NCBI GenBank assembly: GCA_903851465.1 | Contig: CAINOI010000003.1 | Coordinates: 1 to 64,000 of the forward strand | DNA: 64,000 bases | Origin: an uncultured Bacteroidota bacterium | GTDB lineage: Bacteria > Bacteroidota > Bacteroidia > Chitinophagales > Chitinophagaceae | Reading direction: 5' to 3' | Part shown: positions 1-62,412 of the stretch, piece by piece | How the letters are laid out: every line of letters starts with the position of its first letter | Position numbering within the stretch: the stretch's first letter is position 1 | Made by a program: the position numbers and the translations under genes | Notes under the pieces: model-generated | What the model saw: the letters and a program-made list of their open reading frames with translations, nothing else | Database searches by the model: none | Told to the model about the DNA's origin: nothing

Positions 1-839
1 GAATGACTAACTATACTAAAAATAAAAAAGGCACTCAATTGAGTGCCTTTTTTATTTTTACCTTCTTTTAATTTCATCGACTGCCAAATGGCTTCTTTTT
101 CTTCAAGACTTAGTTTAGCTAAATCCAGTCCATGCTCTTTAGCATAGGTTTCCATTAATTCAAAACGATGCTTGAATTTTTTATTCGTTTTCTCTAGGGC
201 GGTCTCAGGGTCTATTTTTAAAAATCGTGCGTAATTGATGAGGCTAAAAAATACATCCCCCAATTCGTCTTCCATTTTCTCCATGTCATTCTGAGCAACC
301 TCATGTTGTAGTTCCCCAATCTCCTCATTCACCTTATCCCAAACCTGCTCTTTGTTCTCCCATTCAAAACCCACTTGTTTTACTTTTTCTTGTATTCTTA
401 AAGCCTTCACCATGGCGGGTAAACTATTAGGCACACCACTTAATAAAGTTTTGGTGCCATCCCCTTCTTTTAATTTTAACTGTTCCCAGTTTAATTTTAC
501 CTGTTCTTCGGTATCGGCTTTTACATCCCCATAAATATGTGGATGTCTATGTATTAATTTTTTAGAAATGCCTTCTATTACTTCTTCTAAAATGAATTCA
601 TTTTTTTCTGAAGCAATCTTGGTGTAAAATAAAATATGCAATAATAAATCTCCTAGCTCTTCTTTAATTCCTTGCCAATCTTCCTCAATAATGGCATCTA
701 CTAGTTCATACAACTCCTCGATGGTATTACTTCTTAGGCTATGAATCGTCTGCTTTTTATCCCAAGGACATTCTGCTCTCAGGCGATCCATGATTCCAAC
801 AAGTTCTAAAAAATTATTAGAGATATTTTCTTGAGACAT
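1..839 (-). CDS. mazG: MazG family nucleoside triphosphate pyrophosphohydrolase (3' end off window)
   Basis: Translated by hand from the ATG at 839 (MSQENISNNF...). MazG hydrolyses (d)NTPs to NMP and PPi, cleaning the nucleotide pool and tuning ppGpp responses. The N-terminal domain has CPWDKKQT and the metal-binding EELYELVDA...EELGDLLLH pattern (about residues 24-68). A second MazG-like half follows, with EEIGELQHE and EDELGDVFF. After about 260 residues, where the family usually ends, the frame has no stop. It runs on through a terminator-like palindrome and off the window, so the protein has at least 279 residues and its true C-terminus cannot be seen. Upstream on the minus strand, TATCTTCG is one mismatch from a -7 box. 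Identity is secure; the 3' end is not. Confidence 0.9.
   Translation of the reverse strand, partial: MSQENISNNFLELVGIMDRLRAECPWDKKQTIHSLRSNTIEELYELVDAIIEEDWQGIKEELGDLLLHILFYTKIASEKNEFILEEVIEGISKKLIHRHPHIYGDVKADTEEQVKLNWEQLKLKEGDGTKTLLSGVPNSLPAMVKALRIQEKVKQVGFEWENKEQVWDKVNEEIGELQHEVAQNDMEKMEDELGDVFFSLINYARFLKIDPETALEKTNKKFKHRFELMETYAKEHGLDLAKLSLEEKEAIWQSMKLKEGKNKKGTQLSAFFIFSIVSH
24..53. terminator. Perfect palindrome resembling a bidirectional intrinsic terminator
   Basis: GGCACTC and GAGTGCC flank an AATT loop, with A-runs before and T-runs after, so it could terminate transcription on either strand. It lies inside the still-open mazG frame, so it is either just before the mazG stop or belongs to a convergent gene outside the window. 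Confidence 0.7.
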
Positions 840-903
840 GATCTTTTAAATTAGGATTTGATTGAACGAAGATAGACAAAGTTCGGAACTGCCATTTTTC
901 GCA

Positions 904-934
904 TAAAAAAACCCCAAGTTAAAAACTTGAGGTT
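904..934 (-). terminator. Intrinsic terminator after tRNA-Leu
   Basis: Read on the minus strand, ACCTCAAGT and ACTTGGGGT (one G-T pair) flank a T-rich loop and are followed by seven T. It lies 12 bp past the tRNA-Leu 3' end and separates the tRNAs from mazG. Confidence 0.85.
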
Positions 935-945
935 TGTCGATTTCG

Positions 946-1031
946 TGCCCCAGGCGGGAATCGAACCCGCACTCGCGTTGCGGCGAACAGGATTTTAAGT
1001 CCTGCGTGTCTACCAGTTCCACCACCAGGGC
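946..1031 (-). tRNA. tRNA-Leu (anticodon TAA)
   Basis: The 86-nt class II tRNA has acceptor arms GCCCTGG and CTGGGGC, discriminator A, a long variable arm, T-loop GGTTCGATTC, and anticodon TAA in loop CTTAAAA. CCA is not encoded (CGA follows), so it must be added post-transcriptionally. It lies 47 bp downstream of tRNA-Gly on the same strand with no obvious promoter of its own. Confidence 0.97.
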
Positions 1032-1045
1032 GTCATTACTGACTT

Positions 1046-1076
1046 AAAAAAAATCCCGTCCGAAGAACGGGATTTT
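1046..1076 (-). terminator. Terminator-like hairpin between tRNA-Gly and tRNA-Leu
   Basis: Minus strand: TCCCGT and ACGGGA stem with a TTCG-containing loop, followed by eight T. It sits between two tandem tRNA genes, so it either ends the tRNA-Gly transcript or is a leaky or processing hairpin within a tRNA operon. Confidence 0.8.
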
Positions 1077-1078
1077 TG

Positions 1079-1151
<73 letters not shown>

Positions 1152-1177
1152 TTGAACAAGAACTATTTTTTGGACTG

Positions 1178-1208
1178 CGAAAATAAGGAATCAACGCAAA
1201 CCAACAAA
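1178..1208 (-). promoter_or_regulatory. Predicted promoter of the tRNA-Gly/tRNA-Leu pair
   Basis: Minus strand: TTTG (-33) at 1208-1205, a 19-bp spacer, and TATTTTCG (-7) at 1185-1178. This fits the Bacteroidota TTTG/TAnnTTTG promoter with one change. The same TATTTTCG box precedes tRNA-Cys. Confidence 0.5.
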
Positions 1209-1216
1209 ATTTTTTT

Positions 1217-1420
1217 CTACTTATATTCAGGTTTGTACTGAGAACTTGTGTTCACTTCTACAGTAGGCTTTTTGAAGCCAGAACTGAATAGCTTAGTACA
1301 ATTTCCTAAAACGAGTGATAATAGTGCAAAAACAGATACATAAAAAAGGAATCTAGAAGAACTTACCCAGTTCTTAGCGATGTCTTTATTGGTAGATGTT
1401 TCTTGAATTTCTTGTGACAT
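1217..1420 (-). CDS. Small single-pass membrane protein, unknown function
   Basis: 67 residues. A polar N-terminus (MSQEIQETSTNKD) is followed by one hydrophobic segment at about residues 23-40, then a short basic, polar tail. No family is recognised and no function is assigned. A perfect -7 box, TATTTTTG at 1446-1439, lies 18 nt upstream of the ATG, which argues that it is expressed from its own promoter. It lies between the tRNA pair and a glycosyltransferase on the same strand. It could be a small accessory membrane subunit. Moderate confidence that it is a gene. Confidence 0.6.
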   Translation of the reverse strand: MSQEIQETSTNKDIAKNWVSSSRFLFYVSVFALLSLVLGNCTKLFSSGFKKPTVEVNTSSQYKPEYK

Positions 1421-1438
1421 AGTGTTTAATTACGGATG

Positions 1439-1446
1439 CAAAAATA
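1439..1446 (-). promoter_or_regulatory. -7 promoter box of the 67-residue membrane protein
   Basis: TATTTTTG exactly matches TAnnTTTG, 18 nt before the ATG at 1420. No convincing -33 element is seen. Confidence 0.45.
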
Positions 1447-1457
1447 ACAACAAGTTC

Positions 1458-2486
1458 TTAATTATGAACGAGTTTGGTGACAATTTTATCAAATTTCTGC
1501 CGGTTTTTTACAAAGTATTGAAAAACAACTGACCCATTGTAAACTCCCCCTATTGAAGCCATTGGTTTACATTCCTTGCTCCTATTGACTTTGCCTGTTA
1601 ACCAGTACCCAATTACTGCTAAATGTGCCTTAAAAATGGCCGTAAAAAAGTACCCATCCCCACTCAATAAGCCTTTCCAAGCAGATACCCCATCTAATGC
1701 AAAACGCAAAGGCATTTTCCATATTAATTCTTGGACGGGAAGATGCTTACTTAACATGATCAAATTATTCCTAAAATTTAAATAAACTTTTCTACCGCCT
1801 CTAGGTAAAGTACCCGCACCCACATGATATACGACAGCAGTTGGACAAGCATATAAAGCATGGTCTTCTAATTGCATTCGCCAACAAAGATCAATTTCCT
1901 CTTGATGTGCAAAAAAACTGGCATCAAATCCACCCAATGCATGAAACAGTTTAGATCTAATCATCATGGCCGCTCCAGATGCCCAGAAAATAGGTTCAGC
2001 ACTGTCATACTGCCCTTTGTCTTGCTCACATACATCAAATATCCTACCTCTTGAGAAAGGGTAACCTAGTGCATCTATCCATCCACCACTTGCGCCAGCA
2101 TATTCAAAACTAGTTGGCTCTTTTTGTGCTAATATTTTTGGTTGACATGCTCCAATAGTTGGATTTGATTCCATTAATTGAACCATTGGCGTTACCCAAT
2201 TCGCATCTACTTGCACATCTGAATTCAATAAAATATAATAATCGGCTTTTACTAGTTTAAGCGCCCAATTGTAGCCTCCAGCAAAACCTTCGTTGGTTGG
2301 ATTTTGAATCACTTTGACTGTTGGAAAATATTTTGCTAGAATTTCTAATGAATTGTCTTTTGAACCATTGTCTGCCACCACAACTTCTTTGTTTTGGTAG
2401 GATGTCGCGAGCACAGAAGGCAAAAAAGTCTTCAGGTAATTAGCCCCATTAAAATTTAAAATAACGATTGACACGAGCGGTTCCAA
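1458..2486 (-). CDS. Glycosyltransferase family 2
   Basis: 342 residues. The GT-A fold starts with SIVILNFNG (residues 6-14), followed by VVVADNGSKDNS and a DXD-type segment LLNSDVQVD (86-94). Later come SGAAMMIR and FFAHQEEIDLCWR, the acceptor-side motif of rhamnosyltransferase-like GT2 enzymes. It would transfer a sugar from a nucleotide sugar to a surface glycan at the cytoplasmic face. No ATG fits: the start is TTG at 2486 (MEPLVSIV) or GTG four codons later. Upstream TACATTCG is a near-match -7 box that agrees with either. It is the only polysaccharide gene in this part of the window. Donor and acceptor are unknown. Confidence 0.88.
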   Translation of the reverse strand: MEPLVSIVILNFNGANYLKTFLPSVLATSYQNKEVVVADNGSKDNSLEILAKYFPTVKVIQNPTNEGFAGGYNWALKLVKADYYILLNSDVQVDANWVTPMVQLMESNPTIGACQPKILAQKEPTSFEYAGASGGWIDALGYPFSRGRIFDVCEQDKGQYDSAEPIFWASGAAMMIRSKLFHALGGFDASFFAHQEEIDLCWRMQLEDHALYACPTAVVYHVGAGTLPRGGRKVYLNFRNNLIMLSKHLPVQELIWKMPLRFALDGVSAWKGLLSGDGYFFTAIFKAHLAVIGYWLTGKVNRSKECKPMASIGGVYNGSVVFQYFVKNRQKFDKIVTKLVHN

Positions 2487-4410: not shown

Positions 4411-6282
4411 TTATTTGATATAAAAGCCAAACACATCCACATTGAACCGATTGAATAAGTCGTATTCATTTAAGATGGCAGCAAGTTCTACTCTTTTGAT
4501 ACTTCTTTTTAAATCAAAATCAGTCAAGCTTAAAGTAGCCCAATGCGTTTTAAAACTTGGAAGGATTTCATCTATTTTTTTACCACTAAGAATGGCAGCA
4601 AAATTTAATGCATCCTCAATGGTCATATCGTGTTCAATTATTTTAACAGGAGCATCAAATTTCATTTCCCATGTCATTACAAAATCATTAAATGAAACTG
4701 GTTTGTCTGGGTAAAAATAAGTTGTATTCGCCCACCCATTTGGCACACCCTCTCCTTTTAACAATCCAGTTGCGCCTATCCTTTGCACCGCTTTAAAATA
4801 AGGTGAGCTTTGTTTTACATCAACATAGGGCATAATGTAACCATTTGCCTCAAGCAAAATATTTTGCAATTTTCTTATAGAAACATTTTTTGGCGCAATA
4901 TTATCCTTCACACTTTGTGCTGCCAATAATCCTGCTGCTTGACCAATTTGCATCACACATGGTTGTAATCTTGTGGTACCATTCACAACATTTGACACAC
5001 TAATGGACTTCTCTGCAATAATGATATTGTCCTGGTTTTCAGGAATCAAAGCACTGATTGGAATATTAAAAGACGGAACCGAAAAGAAATCCAAATGTTG
5101 CGGAGCGGATGGATTTTTTTTGTGGTGGTGATCAACAGGATAATCCCCCACAGCAATGCCTGTTCTAAACAATGGCTTTTCGGTTTCAAAAGGTGTTGCA
5201 ATATGTTGCACGACCATTCTCGATAAGCCTTTTACCCTTCTTGATTCTCTATAATATGGATAGTATGCGAGTTTGTCTTTTGTTTTAAACTCATCATCTG
5301 CCAATGCCAAATTTTTAAACCCTAAATCCTTCTGAATGAAATAGACAAACCTAAGCGTTTGTTGTTTTGCAATCTCTAATAATGCTGCTCTTTCTTTGGG
5401 TGTCTTTTCAACTACATTCAAATAAATATCATTGCCATAAATGGGCCAATTGAGCATGTATTTATTCCCAGGCAGTTTACCATAATTAAGCATCTTCATT
5501 GCATCCACTGGTGGCTTTGTTCTTGTACTGTCTTTATAAAAAGAAAGATTACTTGCATCAAACTCTAAGGAATCATAATTTTTTGGTCTTTCTATCAATG
5601 GTTGTGCATTACCATAATCTTTTAACACTGCTACATAGGTGATATCTTGTATAATATCATTTGCACCATTTTTATTCACTTGTTCCTTTGTGACATCGTT
5701 TGATTCCATACCTAAATCATATGGAATATTAGCTGCTGCTAAGACATCCCCAAGTTCAGTGGCATCAATGTAGCGCTTAGCTTTAATTAAGATATTTTTT
5801 TGTTGTTGGTGATCATAAAATAACACGGCTGTGATGGTATTCCCTTCTTTAATTACCTCTTTTAAATCATACTGGTAAAAAATTTTTAAATACTTTTCAT
5901 TTCTTGCCATTGCTTTAAAAATACTATCCCCTATATGTGGCTCAAATAAAGTATTACTCACCCAGCCTGTGGAAACTTTATTGCTTCCTCCATAATGTTG
6001 ATACAGTCTTGCCCTGAACTCTCCAAAGATCCCAGCCGGCATATTATGATTGCCATCAAATGCAGATACCCCCGCAGCAGTCAACATCCCTCCTAACCAT
6101 GGAGTAGATTCTGCAATGATTGTTTGTACCCCTAGTCTTGAGGATTGTAGTCCTGCGCAAATGCCACTGGCCGTGCCGCCAATGACCAATACTTCTGTTT
6201 CTTTTATTTGATCAATGTTTTGACTCCATGCTTTTACAAATTGGCTGGATACAAATAAAAGTATAAGGCAGATAGATCGCAT
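4411..6282 (-). CDS. Secreted FAD-dependent oxidoreductase (FAD_oxidored family)
   Basis: 623 residues. A signal peptide (about 1-20) is followed by the FAD dinucleotide fold TEVLVIGGTASGICAG (about 30-45), STPWLGGMLTAAG, and later YIDATELGDVLAAANI, typical of the xanthan-lyase-like FAD oxidoreductases common in Bacteroidota. TTRLQPCVMQIGQAAG near residue 455 is the second FAD-contacting motif. The C-terminal 150 residues resemble the S-layer-like tail often attached to this family. It probably acts in the periplasm or at the surface, often in carbohydrate use, but the substrate is unknown. The start ATG at 6282 gives a clean signal peptide. Confidence 0.85.
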   Translation of the reverse strand: MRSICLILLFVSSQFVKAWSQNIDQIKETEVLVIGGTASGICAGLQSSRLGVQTIIAESTPWLGGMLTAAGVSAFDGNHNMPAGIFGEFRARLYQHYGGSNKVSTGWVSNTLFEPHIGDSIFKAMARNEKYLKIFYQYDLKEVIKEGNTITAVLFYDHQQQKNILIKAKRYIDATELGDVLAAANIPYDLGMESNDVTKEQVNKNGANDIIQDITYVAVLKDYGNAQPLIERPKNYDSLEFDASNLSFYKDSTRTKPPVDAMKMLNYGKLPGNKYMLNWPIYGNDIYLNVVEKTPKERAALLEIAKQQTLRFVYFIQKDLGFKNLALADDEFKTKDKLAYYPYYRESRRVKGLSRMVVQHIATPFETEKPLFRTGIAVGDYPVDHHHKKNPSAPQHLDFFSVPSFNIPISALIPENQDNIIIAEKSISVSNVVNGTTRLQPCVMQIGQAAGLLAAQSVKDNIAPKNVSIRKLQNILLEANGYIMPYVDVKQSSPYFKAVQRIGATGLLKGEGVPNGWANTTYFYPDKPVSFNDFVMTWEMKFDAPVKIIEHDMTIEDALNFAAILSGKKIDEILPSFKTHWATLSLTDFDLKRSIKRVELAAILNEYDLFNRFNVDVFGFYIK

Positions 6283-6346
6283 TGGGATGAATTGGATGGT
6301 AAAATAGGAAAAAGGAATTTCAAAGCAAAAAAAGATTCATTGAATT

Positions 6347-6493
6347 GCCAGCTCATTCCATTCGCTGTCAACCGCCTCGGCTATCTCGTCTTACCCAAAG
6401 CCTTTCAAAAGAATCGCACCGGGAAGCCAGCTCATTCCATTCGCTGTCAACCGCCTCGGCTATCTCGTCTTACCCAAAGCCTTTCAAAAGAAT
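6347..6493. repeat. Perfect 68-bp tandem direct repeat (two copies)
   Basis: The sequence beginning GCCAGCTCATTCC and ending TTTCAAAAGAAT occurs identically at 6347-6414 and 6426-6493, separated by 11 bp (period 79 bp). Each copy carries, on the minus strand, the right flank of the 55-nt hairpin element. Only the 6426-6493 copy is joined to the complete hairpin. The 318-bp stretch 6283-6601 holds no credible gene; short open frames across it merely read the repeat. Confidence 0.95.
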
Positions 6494-6523
6494 GCTTCGC
6501 ATCCTTTTGACTTTTTTGCTTCT
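6469..6523 (-). repeat. 55-nt structured hairpin element, copy A (after tRNA-Cys)
   Basis: Minus strand: left flank AGAAGCAAAAAAG, one nt, then a 25-nt hairpin (6509-6485) of 11 bp (one G-T pair) with a GAA loop, then right flank AAAGGCTTTGGGTAAG. Copy B at 45216-45270 is collinear without indels, and four stem pairs differ by compensatory double changes. It starts 78 bp past the tRNA-Cys 3' end, beyond the terminator. A further 7-bp hairpin (CACAAGC, GA, GCTTGTG) lies at 6534-6549. Confidence 0.8.
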
Positions 6524-6564
6524 CGTCATCTTACACAAGCGAGCTTGTGACGCTGCCTTAAACC

Positions 6565-6594
6565 AAAAAAGCCTCTCACTTTCGTGAGAGGCTT
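6565..6594 (-). terminator. Intrinsic terminator after tRNA-Cys
   Basis: Minus strand: GCCTCTCAC and GTGAGAGGC form a 9-bp stem with a GAAA tetraloop, followed by six T. It lies 9 bp past the tRNA-Cys 3' end. Confidence 0.9.
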
Positions 6595-6601
6595 TGTATC
6601 G

Positions 6602-6672
6602 AGGTCCCGAGCGGGTTCGAACCGCTGTAGAAGCTTTTGCAGAGCTTTGCCTAACCACTCGGCCACAGGACC
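6602..6672 (-). tRNA. tRNA-Cys (anticodon GCA)
   Basis: 71 nt. Acceptor arms GGTCCTG and CGGGACC (one T-G pair), discriminator T, anticodon stem AAGCT/AGCTT with loop CTGCAAA giving GCA, and T-arm GCGGTTCGAACCCGC. CCA is not encoded. A promoter-like box lies 11 bp upstream and an intrinsic terminator follows. Confidence 0.95.
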
Positions 6673-44983: not shown

Positions 44984-45056
44984 GAATTGGTAGCTCAGTT
45001 GGTAGAGCAATACACTTTTAATGTATGGGCCCTGGGTTCGAGTCCCAGCCAGTTCA
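44984..45056 (+). tRNA. tRNA-Lys (anticodon TTT)
   Basis: 73 nt. Acceptor arms GAATTGG and CCAGTTC (one T-G pair), discriminator A, D-arm GCTCAGTTGGTAGAGC, anticodon stem ATACA/TGTAT with loop CTTTTAA, and T-arm CTGGGTTCGAGTCCCAG. CCA is not encoded. Confidence 0.97.
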
Positions 45057-45058
45057 CA

Positions 45059-45090
45059 AAGCTTGTCACGAAAGTGACAGGCTTTTTTTA
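45059..45090 (+). terminator. Intrinsic terminator after tRNA-Lys
   Basis: GCTTGTCAC, GAAA loop, GTGACAGGC (one T-G pair), then seven T. It is similar in design (9-bp stem, GAAA loop on the transcribed strand) to the tRNA-Cys terminator. Confidence 0.9.
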
Positions 45091-45104
45091 TGCGAGGCCG
45101 CGTC

Positions 45105-45375
45105 GAAAGCCACGAAGTGGGAAAATTGAAGCATTGGCTGTGTTAATAGCTTGCTATTATAAGCAGACAAGGATTTAATTTGAACGAGCGCAGCGAGTGC
45201 TTTCGTAAACGGACAAGAAACAAAAAAGCCAACGAAACGCGAAGCGGTTCGTTGAAAAGCTTTGAGTAAGGACACCACTTAGGGAAGTCGTTCAAGCGAA
45301 GCGAGAACGACAATCCCTACTCTATAAATTGAAAAAGAGGAATTCGGCGGAACGAAGTGGCGCATACTTCCCCTT
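45105..45375 (+). repeat. Hairpin-rich non-coding block downstream of tRNA-Lys
   Basis: The 385-bp gap between tRNA-Lys and the DUF2147 gene holds no credible gene. It contains CCAC-GAA-GTGG (45110-45120), TAATAGC-TT-GCTATTA (45144-45159), the 25-nt GAA-loop hairpin (45230-45254), and a long hairpin (45280-45319) with TAGGGA/TCCCTA and GTCGTTC/GAACGAC stems and a GCGAAGC-containing loop. A weaker GAA-loop structure lies near 45350-45365. GCGAAGC is known to form an exceptionally stable DNA mini-hairpin. Confidence 0.7.
45216..45270 (+). repeat. 55-nt structured hairpin element, copy B (after tRNA-Lys)
   Basis: Left flank AGAAACAAAAAAG, one nt, a 25-nt hairpin with outer arms CAACGAA and TTCGTTG, inner CGC-GAA-GCG and one A-G mismatch, then right flank AAAAGCTTTGAGTAAG. 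It is collinear with copy A at 6469-6523: flanks agree at 12 of 13 and 14 of 16 positions, and the stems differ by compensatory pairs. It starts 159 bp past the tRNA-Lys 3' end on the same strand. Confidence 0.8.
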
Positions 45376-61080: not shown

Positions 61081-62412
61081 GTGCCTTTTGCTCTATTGAC
61101 TGCTGTTGCAGTTGCTGCATTATTCGTACCTCAATTACCAAATTTTGTGGGGGACAAAACAACCTATAATTCGGCAGATATAAGCTGGATATTGGTTGCC
61201 ACAGCATTGGTATTTATAATGACCCCTGGTCTTGCCTTTTTTTATGGAGGAATGGTCCATCGAAAAAATATTCTATCTACAATGATTAAGAGTATCGTTT
61301 CTGCAGGAATTGTCACAATTATCTGGGTAACTGTTGGCTATAGTTTGAGTTTTGGAAACTCCATAAATGGCATTATTGGAAATCCAATGACGCATTTATT
61401 TTTTAAAGGAGTGGTAGATGGCGCACCTCAGTTGCAAGGCGGTACTCCATTTACTATTCCACTATTATTGTTTGCTCTATTTCAGTTAATGTTTGCAATC
61501 ATCACACCTGGTTTAGTTGTAGGAGCAGTTGCTGAAAGAATAAAGTTTACTTCCTATATTTTATTCATTGTCCTATTTATTTTATTAGTTTATGCCCCTT
61601 TAGCACACTGGTCTTGGCATCCAAATGGATTCTTATTAAAAATGGGTGTACTTGATTTTGCAGGAGGCACGGTCGTTCATATAAGTGCTGGCAGTGCAGC
61701 TTTAGCTGGAGCCATTGTCTTGAAATCAAGAAAAGCAAAATTAGAACAATACGAAATTCCTCCAGCAAATATTCCATATGTTTTGATTGGTACTGGATTG
61801 TTATGGTTTGGCTGGTTTGGATTTAATGCAGGTTCTGCTTTAGGTGCAAACAGTTTAGCAGTAAATGCATTTGCCACAACAAATACTGCTGCTGCAGCAG
61901 CTGGTTTAGCTTGGATGTTTTTTGATGTTATGAAAGGTAAAAAACCATCTGTTCTAGGATTTTGTATTGGTGCTGTGGTAGGTTTAGTAGCAATTACTCC
62001 AGCAGCAGGGTTTGTTGGAATTCCACAAAGTATTTTTATTGGCGTTGTTGGTGCTGTAATTTCAAATGTTTTAAGTCATGCTTTTAGACTATCAAGAGTA
62101 GATGATACTTTAGATGTATTCCCATGCCATGGTATTGGCGGAATGGTAGGTATGTTGCTAACAGGCGTATTTGCTTCTAAGGCGGTTAACCCAGCTGGTA
62201 ATGATGGACTATTTTATGGTAATCCAATCTTTTTCTTTACCCAATTAAAAGCGATGTTACTTGTTGTCACATATAGCTTTACTGTCTCTTATAGTATCTT
62301 TAAATTAATTGCCTATTTGTTACCATTACGTGTATCCGAAGAAGAGGAAGAACTTGGATTAGATGCAACTCAACACAATGAAAAATATGGACGAAATCCT
62401 ATGAAAACCTAA
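61081..62412 (+). CDS. amt: Ammonium transporter
   Basis: 443 residues from the GTG at 61081. Eleven-segment Amt fold: MTPGLAFFYGGMVHRKN (about 43-59), AHWSWHPNGFL (first conserved channel histidine region), GGTVVHISAGSAALAG and DDTLDVFPCHGIGGMVG (second channel histidine) are diagnostic. It conducts ammonium across the inner membrane. No glnK follows, which is unusual since amt and glnK are often paired. Upstream of GTG, 17 sense codons read IIKIISNKHFKLASIQKW with no ATG, GTG or TTG, so the true N-terminus is uncertain. A terminator follows. Confidence 0.93.
   Translation: MPFALLTAVAVAALFVPQLPNFVGDKTTYNSADISWILVATALVFIMTPGLAFFYGGMVHRKNILSTMIKSIVSAGIVTIIWVTVGYSLSFGNSINGIIGNPMTHLFFKGVVDGAPQLQGGTPFTIPLLLFALFQLMFAIITPGLVVGAVAERIKFTSYILFIVLFILLVYAPLAHWSWHPNGFLLKMGVLDFAGGTVVHISAGSAALAGAIVLKSRKAKLEQYEIPPANIPYVLIGTGLLWFGWFGFNAGSALGANSLAVNAFATTNTAAAAAGLAWMFFDVMKGKKPSVLGFCIGAVVGLVAITPAAGFVGIPQSIFIGVVGAVISNVLSHAFRLSRVDDTLDVFPCHGIGGMVGMLLTGVFASKAVNPAGNDGLFYGNPIFFFTQLKAMLLVVTYSFTVSYSIFKLIAYLLPLRVSEEEEELGLDATQHNEKYGRNPMKT

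Follow-up and report, generated by a model that had tools for sequence, protein, structure and literature searches.

A conserved cloverleaf behind tRNA and tmRNA genes of Bacteroidota, possibly a gene-less element integrating at their 3' ends

Cis-mobilisable elements (CIMEs) possess att sites and no recombinase, and the attC sites of integrons are single imperfect hairpins that are utilised as bottom-strand DNA. Genomic islands integrate at tRNA and tmRNA genes, the gene being rebuilt and its displaced fragment placed at the far end, as set out in the part of the Islander report drawn on here (PMC4383910). For the ssrA islands of Dehalococcoides, the corresponding part of another report gives 20-bp repeats, insertion in the T-loop and tandem islands, and also describes accretion and elements that retain attL and attR (PMC3146451). 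Amongst smaller elements, the REP palindromes of TnpA-REP and the MITEs appear, in the portions of two reports used here, as small, gene-less, palindromic and repeated (PMC3733652, PMC4596501).

The window analysed here is a stretch of 64,000 nucleotides (contig CAINOI010000003.1, assembly GCA_903851465.1) from an uncultured bacterium of the Chitinophagaceae; the protein encoded next to its tRNA-Cys gene had 93-95% identity to the nearest nine full-length matches, which came from MAGs filed as Sediminibacterium, Chitinophaga, Bacteroidetes or Chitinophagia. The original prediction for this window concerned a pair of 55-nt hairpin elements, copy A (6469-6523, minus strand) and copy B (45216-45270, plus strand), each 3' of a tRNA and its terminator and on the strand of that tRNA. 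These places were confirmed, the host genes identified by ARAGORN being tRNA-Cys(GCA) (6601..6672, minus strand) for copy A and tRNA-Lys(TTT) (44984..45057, plus strand) for copy B. The copies align over 55 nt without a gap and with the claimed flank identities of 12/13 and 14/16, and the double-sided changes at pairs 4-22, 5-21, 6-20 and 9-17 were reproduced, as was the change from G-T to A-T at 7-19; a further pair that had escaped attention, 8-18, is A-T in copy A and A.G in copy B, and is thus broken in the latter. A pattern derived from both copies found four places genome-wide (behind tRNA-Cys, -Lys, -Glu and -Arg) and its reversed control found none, hence the resemblance is not a matter of chance. 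The hairpin element is real, but 55 nt proved too narrow a boundary, as this is merely the 3' third of a larger unit.

The whole unit is a cloverleaf with a four-way junction, extends for approximately 100-125 nt from the tRNA 3' end, and has the terminator of the tRNA as its first arm. Its layout is CAAAGCC - hairpin 1 - GGCTTTTTT.. - hairpin 2 - ..AAAAAAGCC - hairpin 3 - GGCTTTG, the first part being the tRNA's own terminator, and since the stem strand of this terminator is present four times per unit, the outer two strands can pair with each other, as can the inner two, to give the four-way junction. Where the terminator is of the form CAAACCC/GGGTTT (a tRNA-Leu and one tRNA-Arg), the distant partner strands are altered correspondingly. 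By reading, the unit was found behind 11 of the 26 tRNA matches of the genome, which include two truncated genes; the hosts were Lys, Pro, three Arg, Glu, Cys, Gln, two Leu and Ser, one of the two Leu units having a degenerate third arm. Behind each of these 11, arm 1, the closing strand and a T-run form an intrinsic terminator, which is a part of the unit and not the whole of it.

Behind tRNA-Cys the complete cloverleaf comprises 122 nt (6475..6596, minus strand) and scored 129.3 bits (E 8.4e-34) with a covariance model for which it was itself one of the five source copies. Alignment and folding divide it, on the minus strand throughout, into the 5' strand of the closing stem (CAAAGCC, 6590..6596), which doubles as the 5' arm of the tRNA terminator; arm 1, the tip of the terminator hairpin with a GAAA loop (6574..6589); arm 2, with T-run/A-run pairing, an internal loop and a CTCG-tipped hairpin (6509..6573); arm 3, with a GCGAAGC tip, the core of copy A (6486..6508); and the 3' strand of the closing stem (GGCTTTG, 6475..6481). 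The cloverleaf is the minimum-energy fold of this sequence (-47.5 kcal/mol, z -5.7; shuffles -29.2 +/- 3.2), the opposite strand reaching -36.6 kcal/mol. A 79-bp tandem duplication detected by TRF (6347..6493, minus strand) contains the 3' strand of the closing stem and the tail hairpin, and the number of tail units differs among orthologues. The tails of other loci (L048/L016, L094, L097 and L102) consist of runs of tail hairpins or partial units, and the partial units begin at the arm-2 hairpin, as if copied from there. Elsewhere in the window there is an imperfect 25-bp tandem repeat of 1.9 copies (61777-61823).

The unit behind tRNA-Lys (45057..45264, plus strand), delimited by sequence reading and folding, has a second cloverleaf inserted in arm 2 (45104..45205, plus strand) that on its own matches the whole of the second covariance model described below (40.9 bits, E 1.6e-5). 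Direct comparison with copy A assigns copy B to the end of arm 2, arm 3 and the closing strand, and a tail hairpin read from the sequence (AGGGAAGTCG..CGACAATCCCT; 45280..45319, plus strand) is like the tails in relatives. The best fold of the Lys unit has another shape, the outer cloverleaf costing 0.9 kcal/mol when forced (-66.1 versus -67.0 kcal/mol unconstrained). Second cloverleaves at the tip of arm 2 are present in several other units. In the Gln unit of the same genome and in locus L089 the outer and inner junctions are both present in the best fold; for L112 and L126 the fold keeps the inner three-branch junction and has two separate hairpins in place of the outer one. The inner junction has five branches in L087 and four in L103.

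A first covariance model, built from five copies of this genome, returned ten places on the tRNA strand of the same genome, each behind a tRNA already read as unit-bearing, the remaining five rows being second-strand readings or overlaps of the same ten places. Applied more widely, it matched in at least 23 of 147 genomes of the family. With a second model, built from 35 copies, units were detected at the level of the order in at least 52 of 298 genomes and at that of the phylum in at least 21 of 395; all three counts are minima, no more than 24, 12 and 9 candidates having been scored per genome for family, order and phylum, and the order and phylum sets overlap each other and include the genome of the window. 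Among the weak BLAST matches L005-L009, the two that were read are L005, which looks coding, and L008, which lies behind tRNA-Leu(GAG). The stretch in L100 is Sediminibacterium-like though its record is titled Comamonas, a label or binning error being probable.

The loci that were fetched, a subset of all places found in these searches, gave 136 aligned rows, and 127 non-overlapping matches remained once nine rows overlapping a better one had been removed; a plus-strand reading was kept for L185 although its tRNA is on the minus strand. The proximity to tRNA genes foreseen from the first two copies held for 108 of the 127, which begin no more than 16 nt behind a tRNA or tmRNA and share its strand. 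Their hosts were Cys (32), Leu (22), Ser (20), Arg (13), Pro (11), Met, Gln and Phe (two each), and Glu, Asp, tmRNA and a tRNA of undetermined type (one each), with 30 of the 32 Cys matches being orthologues of a single locus fetched via a neighbour gene and therefore not independent. Seven more were later units of arrays (one in L076, three in L153, three in L166). Amongst the remaining 12, that of L185 abuts the tRNA on its minus strand, those of L087 and L098 directly follow an interrupted tRNA-Leu, that of L082 lies behind an assembly gap that retains the tRNA-Cys end, those of L058, L171 and L176 lie behind tRNA 3' fragments, those of L052 and L070 are 50 and 20 nt from the tRNA, and that of L078 has no tRNA. 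L140, L141 and the copy at G373:C4:2772999 share a non-tRNA upstream context (TTCTTCCAAACT.GCTCCTAT.GAGGCTA), which might be where a convergent coding gene ends. By eye, the tRNA-Leu(TAA) just upstream of L087 4697-4819 and L098 3883-4004 is seemingly interrupted by an intron, probably of group I.

It was found that 96.2% of cells were paired in 44 distinct aligned rows, and that 361 cells showed a change on both sides, in comparison with 93 in shuffles (none of 500 reached 361) and at most 54 with slid partners; the further copies have thus diverged with compensation, in keeping with the selection for structure originally proposed. For strand bias, identical and reverse rows were removed to leave 123 rows, and pairs flanked by Watson-Crick pairs were counted. 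G.T pairs outnumbered A.C pairs by 112 to 14, which indicates that selection acts on the tRNA-sense single strand. Having been fitted to the model, the larger alignments (A5 and A6) lean towards its structure; since a first alignment, made free of any structure model, also gave 11 G.T and no A.C, and in view of the slid controls, such fitting is unlikely to explain either result. Covariation and a G.U-like strand bias, the combination looked for in a structured RNA, are therefore both present. Between a small RNA and a protein-binding DNA hairpin, both among the original suggestions, this bias speaks for the former, as a single strand (RNA being the simplest case) accounts for it better than a double-stranded hairpin would; on sequence grounds, the strand under selection is most likely RNA.

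Repeats of the tRNA 3' end, of at least 10 nt, follow the unit in 28 of the 127 matches, versus 18 of 1905 control comparisons with other loci, and the other 99 have shorter matches that are mostly no longer than those of the controls. Sixteen of the 28 repeats start with AATCC or AATCT, that is at tRNA base 58 in the T-loop (our own numbering), another six include this point or begin one base later, and six start further on. Elements that integrate in tRNA genes have the tRNA 3' end repeated directly at their far boundary, and such a repeat is a mark of site-specific integration. In some relatives the tail closes with the hairpin GGATCA..TAATCC, which continues straight into another copy of the tRNA 3' end, and in L076, L064, L062, L057 and L058 an ordinary terminator was seen by eye behind the repeat. 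Carriers of unit plus repeat lie mostly outside the genus of the window, within which little beyond AATCC remains. Arrays were also encountered: L076 has two different units in tandem, and L153 has four units of equal score with a period of 153 bp, every boundary of which is a tRNA-Arg 3' end. A derivation of the tail from the tRNA 5' half was considered and rejected, local alignment of the tail with its own tRNA, set against 33 others, having given no consistent excess, loci with the 3'-end repeat excepted; when the tail was compared as its reverse complement, the locus's own tRNA came first in two of 34 cases (L044 and L064), which was taken as chance.

We therefore favour as the probable explanation, with appreciable room for doubt, that the unit is an integrative element without genes, approximately 150-190 bp long, whose targets are tRNA and tmRNA genes at their 3' ends. 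A site-specific recombinase supplied in trans would cut in the T-loop, insertion would rebuild the tRNA and push the old terminator beyond the repeat, and the terminator of the unit would maintain normal expression of the tRNA, making the insertion tolerable. The cloverleaf might then be used in a read-through RNA, whether for mobilisation, for trailer processing or for a task of the host, and such use would explain its long retention at some loci; as arm 1 is a strong terminator, the full RNA would need read-through or another promoter. The putative recombinase in trans and the putative use of the RNA are the weakest steps of this mechanism. Counterpoints are that 150 bp is very little for a double-stranded circle produced by recombination, and that repeats of at least 10 nt are found in a minority of copies. 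The more specific proposal, that these units are selfish or domesticated mobile structured RNAs, being tRNA/tmRNA 3' trailers that land in the T-loop, bring their own terminator and grow recursively, is put forward tentatively, and we would place it somewhat below an even chance.

The unit has no integrase gene of its own; in repeat-bearing copies the gap between closing stem and repeat is at most 66 nt (88 in L056), which is too short for a gene. Recombinases were encountered at tRNA ends in relatives. At the tRNA-Cys end, the island of L131 encodes a tyrosine recombinase of 405 aa, which has Phage_integrase, SAM-like and arm domains, and the island of L118 encodes a Phage_integrase protein of 189 aa together with a protein of 517 aa that has arm and SAM-like domains; both islands occupy the position at which relatives have the cloverleaf. 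At tRNA-Glu of genome G373, a serine recombinase of 537 aa with Resolvase and Recombinase domains adjoins the tRNA (L189, G373:C4:2749300-2769299; 115-1725, minus strand), and the relative G336 has a unit there. Phage_integrase genes were present in all 20 genomes searched, whether or not units had been found, so that their counts do not discriminate. Reverse transcriptase (PF00078) was matched in eight of the 20, including the unit-bearing G087, G373, G289, G066, G345 and G439, and gave no match in the unit-bearing G000, G308, G362, G336, G371, G612 and G512; with many units and no such match, RNA-templated mobility by a resident enzyme is unlikely in the latter genomes. The genome of the window is among those that gave no match.

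The alternative that survives best, though we judge it rather unlikely, is that of an immobile host RNA, a tRNA 3' trailer that tunes termination, read-through or processing, that is spread by gene conversion and acquires its repeats through tandem duplication. The tRNA-Cys locus is in its favour, as it shows vertical retention with compensatory evolution. On a gene tree of 55 rows, labelled by eye as 34 occupied, 14 empty, two with islands (L118, L131) and two partial (L080, L106 and L114 unlabelled), the 48 occupied and empty rows need two changes (one without the outgroup), and six changes are needed when all states are counted; L108 and L109 are deletion derivatives, and in the empty group the acceptor stem is a different one. 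The unit at tRNA-Cys is old and stable, the pattern looks more like host retention than frequent movement, and on the favoured reading, too, this long retention suggests that some copies serve the host. The strong sense-strand bias, the high load in the genome of the window (11 of 26 tRNA matches) and the absence of a long repeat from most copies are likewise as a host RNA would have them. Segments shared between loci, which on the favoured reading speak for movement from one locus to another, can here be put down to conversion, the terminator arms being nearly identical. The Cys unit of L139, from another species, has 98% identity to the Arg(TCT) unit of this genome and 83% to the Cys unit of this genome; in L085 and L115, the Leu units agree at 98% over 87 nt, against 79% in the next 700 nt. 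Arm-2 modules, defined by single linkage at a score of 0.88, are common to Glu, Ser, Leu and Cys units, to Cys and Leu units, and to Cys, Arg and Met units, with 71 copies standing alone.

Other loci speak against a host RNA. At tRNA-Leu(TAA), which is livelier than tRNA-Cys, six changes were required for 17 rows, the labels being set by eye, and L082 and L129 carry deletion derivatives. A deletion scar and plain terminators coexist at this tRNA; the probable scar (885..904, minus strand) is in the window, behind the gene at 945-1031, and is a junction of arm-2 start and tail end recognised by eye against occupied orthologues. In addition, the ordinary second terminators behind the repeat in several genera, and the common start in or at the T-loop across tRNA types in 22 of the 28 repeats, are what integration leaves, and the distribution of the unit over family, order and phylum is patchy.

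Less likely again is that the unit is a folded DNA site, in which tRNA-sense single-stranded DNA would be recombined like integron attC and its structure read by the recombinase rather than as RNA. The tRNA strand folded better than its complement in 122 of the 123 rows with RNA parameters and in 120 with DNA parameters, and fold energy alone therefore cannot separate RNA from single-stranded DNA; the cloverleaf was the best fold in 80 rows with RNA parameters versus 63 with DNA parameters, which is against DNA. In favour of folded DNA, G.A pairs are also tolerated (38 across the closing stem, arm 1, lower arm 2 and arm 3), and arrays of units sharing a common end resemble cassettes. GCGAAGC-type tips and GNA loops are very stable in DNA, and such tips in the unit would suit it. 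As a yardstick, tRNA acceptor stems gave 35 G.T, two A.C and no other mismatches, whereas the units also contain G.A and other mismatches. Lower arm 2, the part peculiar to the cloverleaf, with 52 G.T to one A.C, is nevertheless biased as tRNA stems are, which argues against DNA; the counts were 34 to five in arm 3 and 12 to two in arm 1, and the closing stem, with three G.T and four A.C, was without strand bias.

Far less credible are two convergent terminators, one per strand, with stems that are alike by chance: either half does resemble a terminator on its own strand, with a stem followed by a T-run, yet no pairing between the halves would be predicted, whereas lower arm 2 covaries and does so with strand bias, and the gene after tRNA-Cys of the window runs in the same direction, so that no second terminator is needed there. 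The REP-like palindrome spread by a RAYT (Y1 transposase), which the original prediction had also entertained, can be dismissed almost entirely, as the units are indeed short, palindromic, repeated and gene-free, but the genome of the window (91% complete) gave no match to Y1_Tnp (PF01797), and they are confined to tRNA ends rather than dispersed (the 108 of 127 at tRNA or tmRNA genes, and the seven later array units).

The original remark that no described family was recognisable was borne out by Rfam (release 15), in which only tRNA scored above gathering in the window and in ten unit-bearing loci; at 6200-6620 of the window, five matches were below the gathering score (E 1.2 to 6.8). A word-based search of the open-access literature, including the accessible parts of PMC3146451 and PMC2647930, retrieved no published description of the unit. 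In phage and plasmid collections, only the tRNA part was covered among the matches listed (best 8 of 391 and best 8 of 185), none of these covering 80% of the query, and two tail patterns gave no matches in viral contigs. One Cys pattern had three matches in viral contigs, all without a tRNA and in or beside phage coding frames, and these were taken as chance.

The unit joins integration at tRNA genes with structured RNA, which are usually separate subjects. If the favoured reading is correct, tRNA-gene integrants of approximately 150 bp exist that are gene-free and have an RNA fold as their sole content, and many tRNA genes of Bacteroidota can yield, on transcription, another conserved cloverleaf in addition to the tRNA. 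This would explain the odd repeats downstream of tRNA genes and offer a natural terminator/cloverleaf switch for study. A tRNA terminator that covaries with sequence 100 nt downstream, and the nesting of one cloverleaf within another, should surprise the specialist, and the testable question posed is which recombinase acts and what role the RNA has.

In relation to the described systems, the unit resembles CIMEs in having two att-like ends and no recombinase, such that one would be needed in trans, and departs from them in being without any cargo, approximately 150 bp long, of near-uniform length and a structured RNA. With integron attC arrays it shares folded, repeated sites in arrays, but it is a four-arm junction with a sense-strand G.T bias and no cassette genes. 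REP palindromes and MITEs, as portrayed in the portions of the literature used here, are likewise small and gene-less, and the unit differs from them by its tRNA-end position, its four-way junction and its tRNA-end repeats. The islands of Islander, as far as the part of that report used here describes them, are alike in integrating at tRNA and tmRNA genes, but have genes and an integrase, whereas the unit is gene-free, approximately 150 bp in length and conserved in its fold. The Dehalococcoides ssrA islands, in the corresponding part of their report, use a single target gene, carry genes and an integration module, and are described there without a cloverleaf. Integration at tRNA genes, accretion and structured RNA are thus all of known kinds; as no Rfam family or description was found, and each of the known kinds considered either fails its test or differs in a defining respect, it is their combination in this unit that is new.
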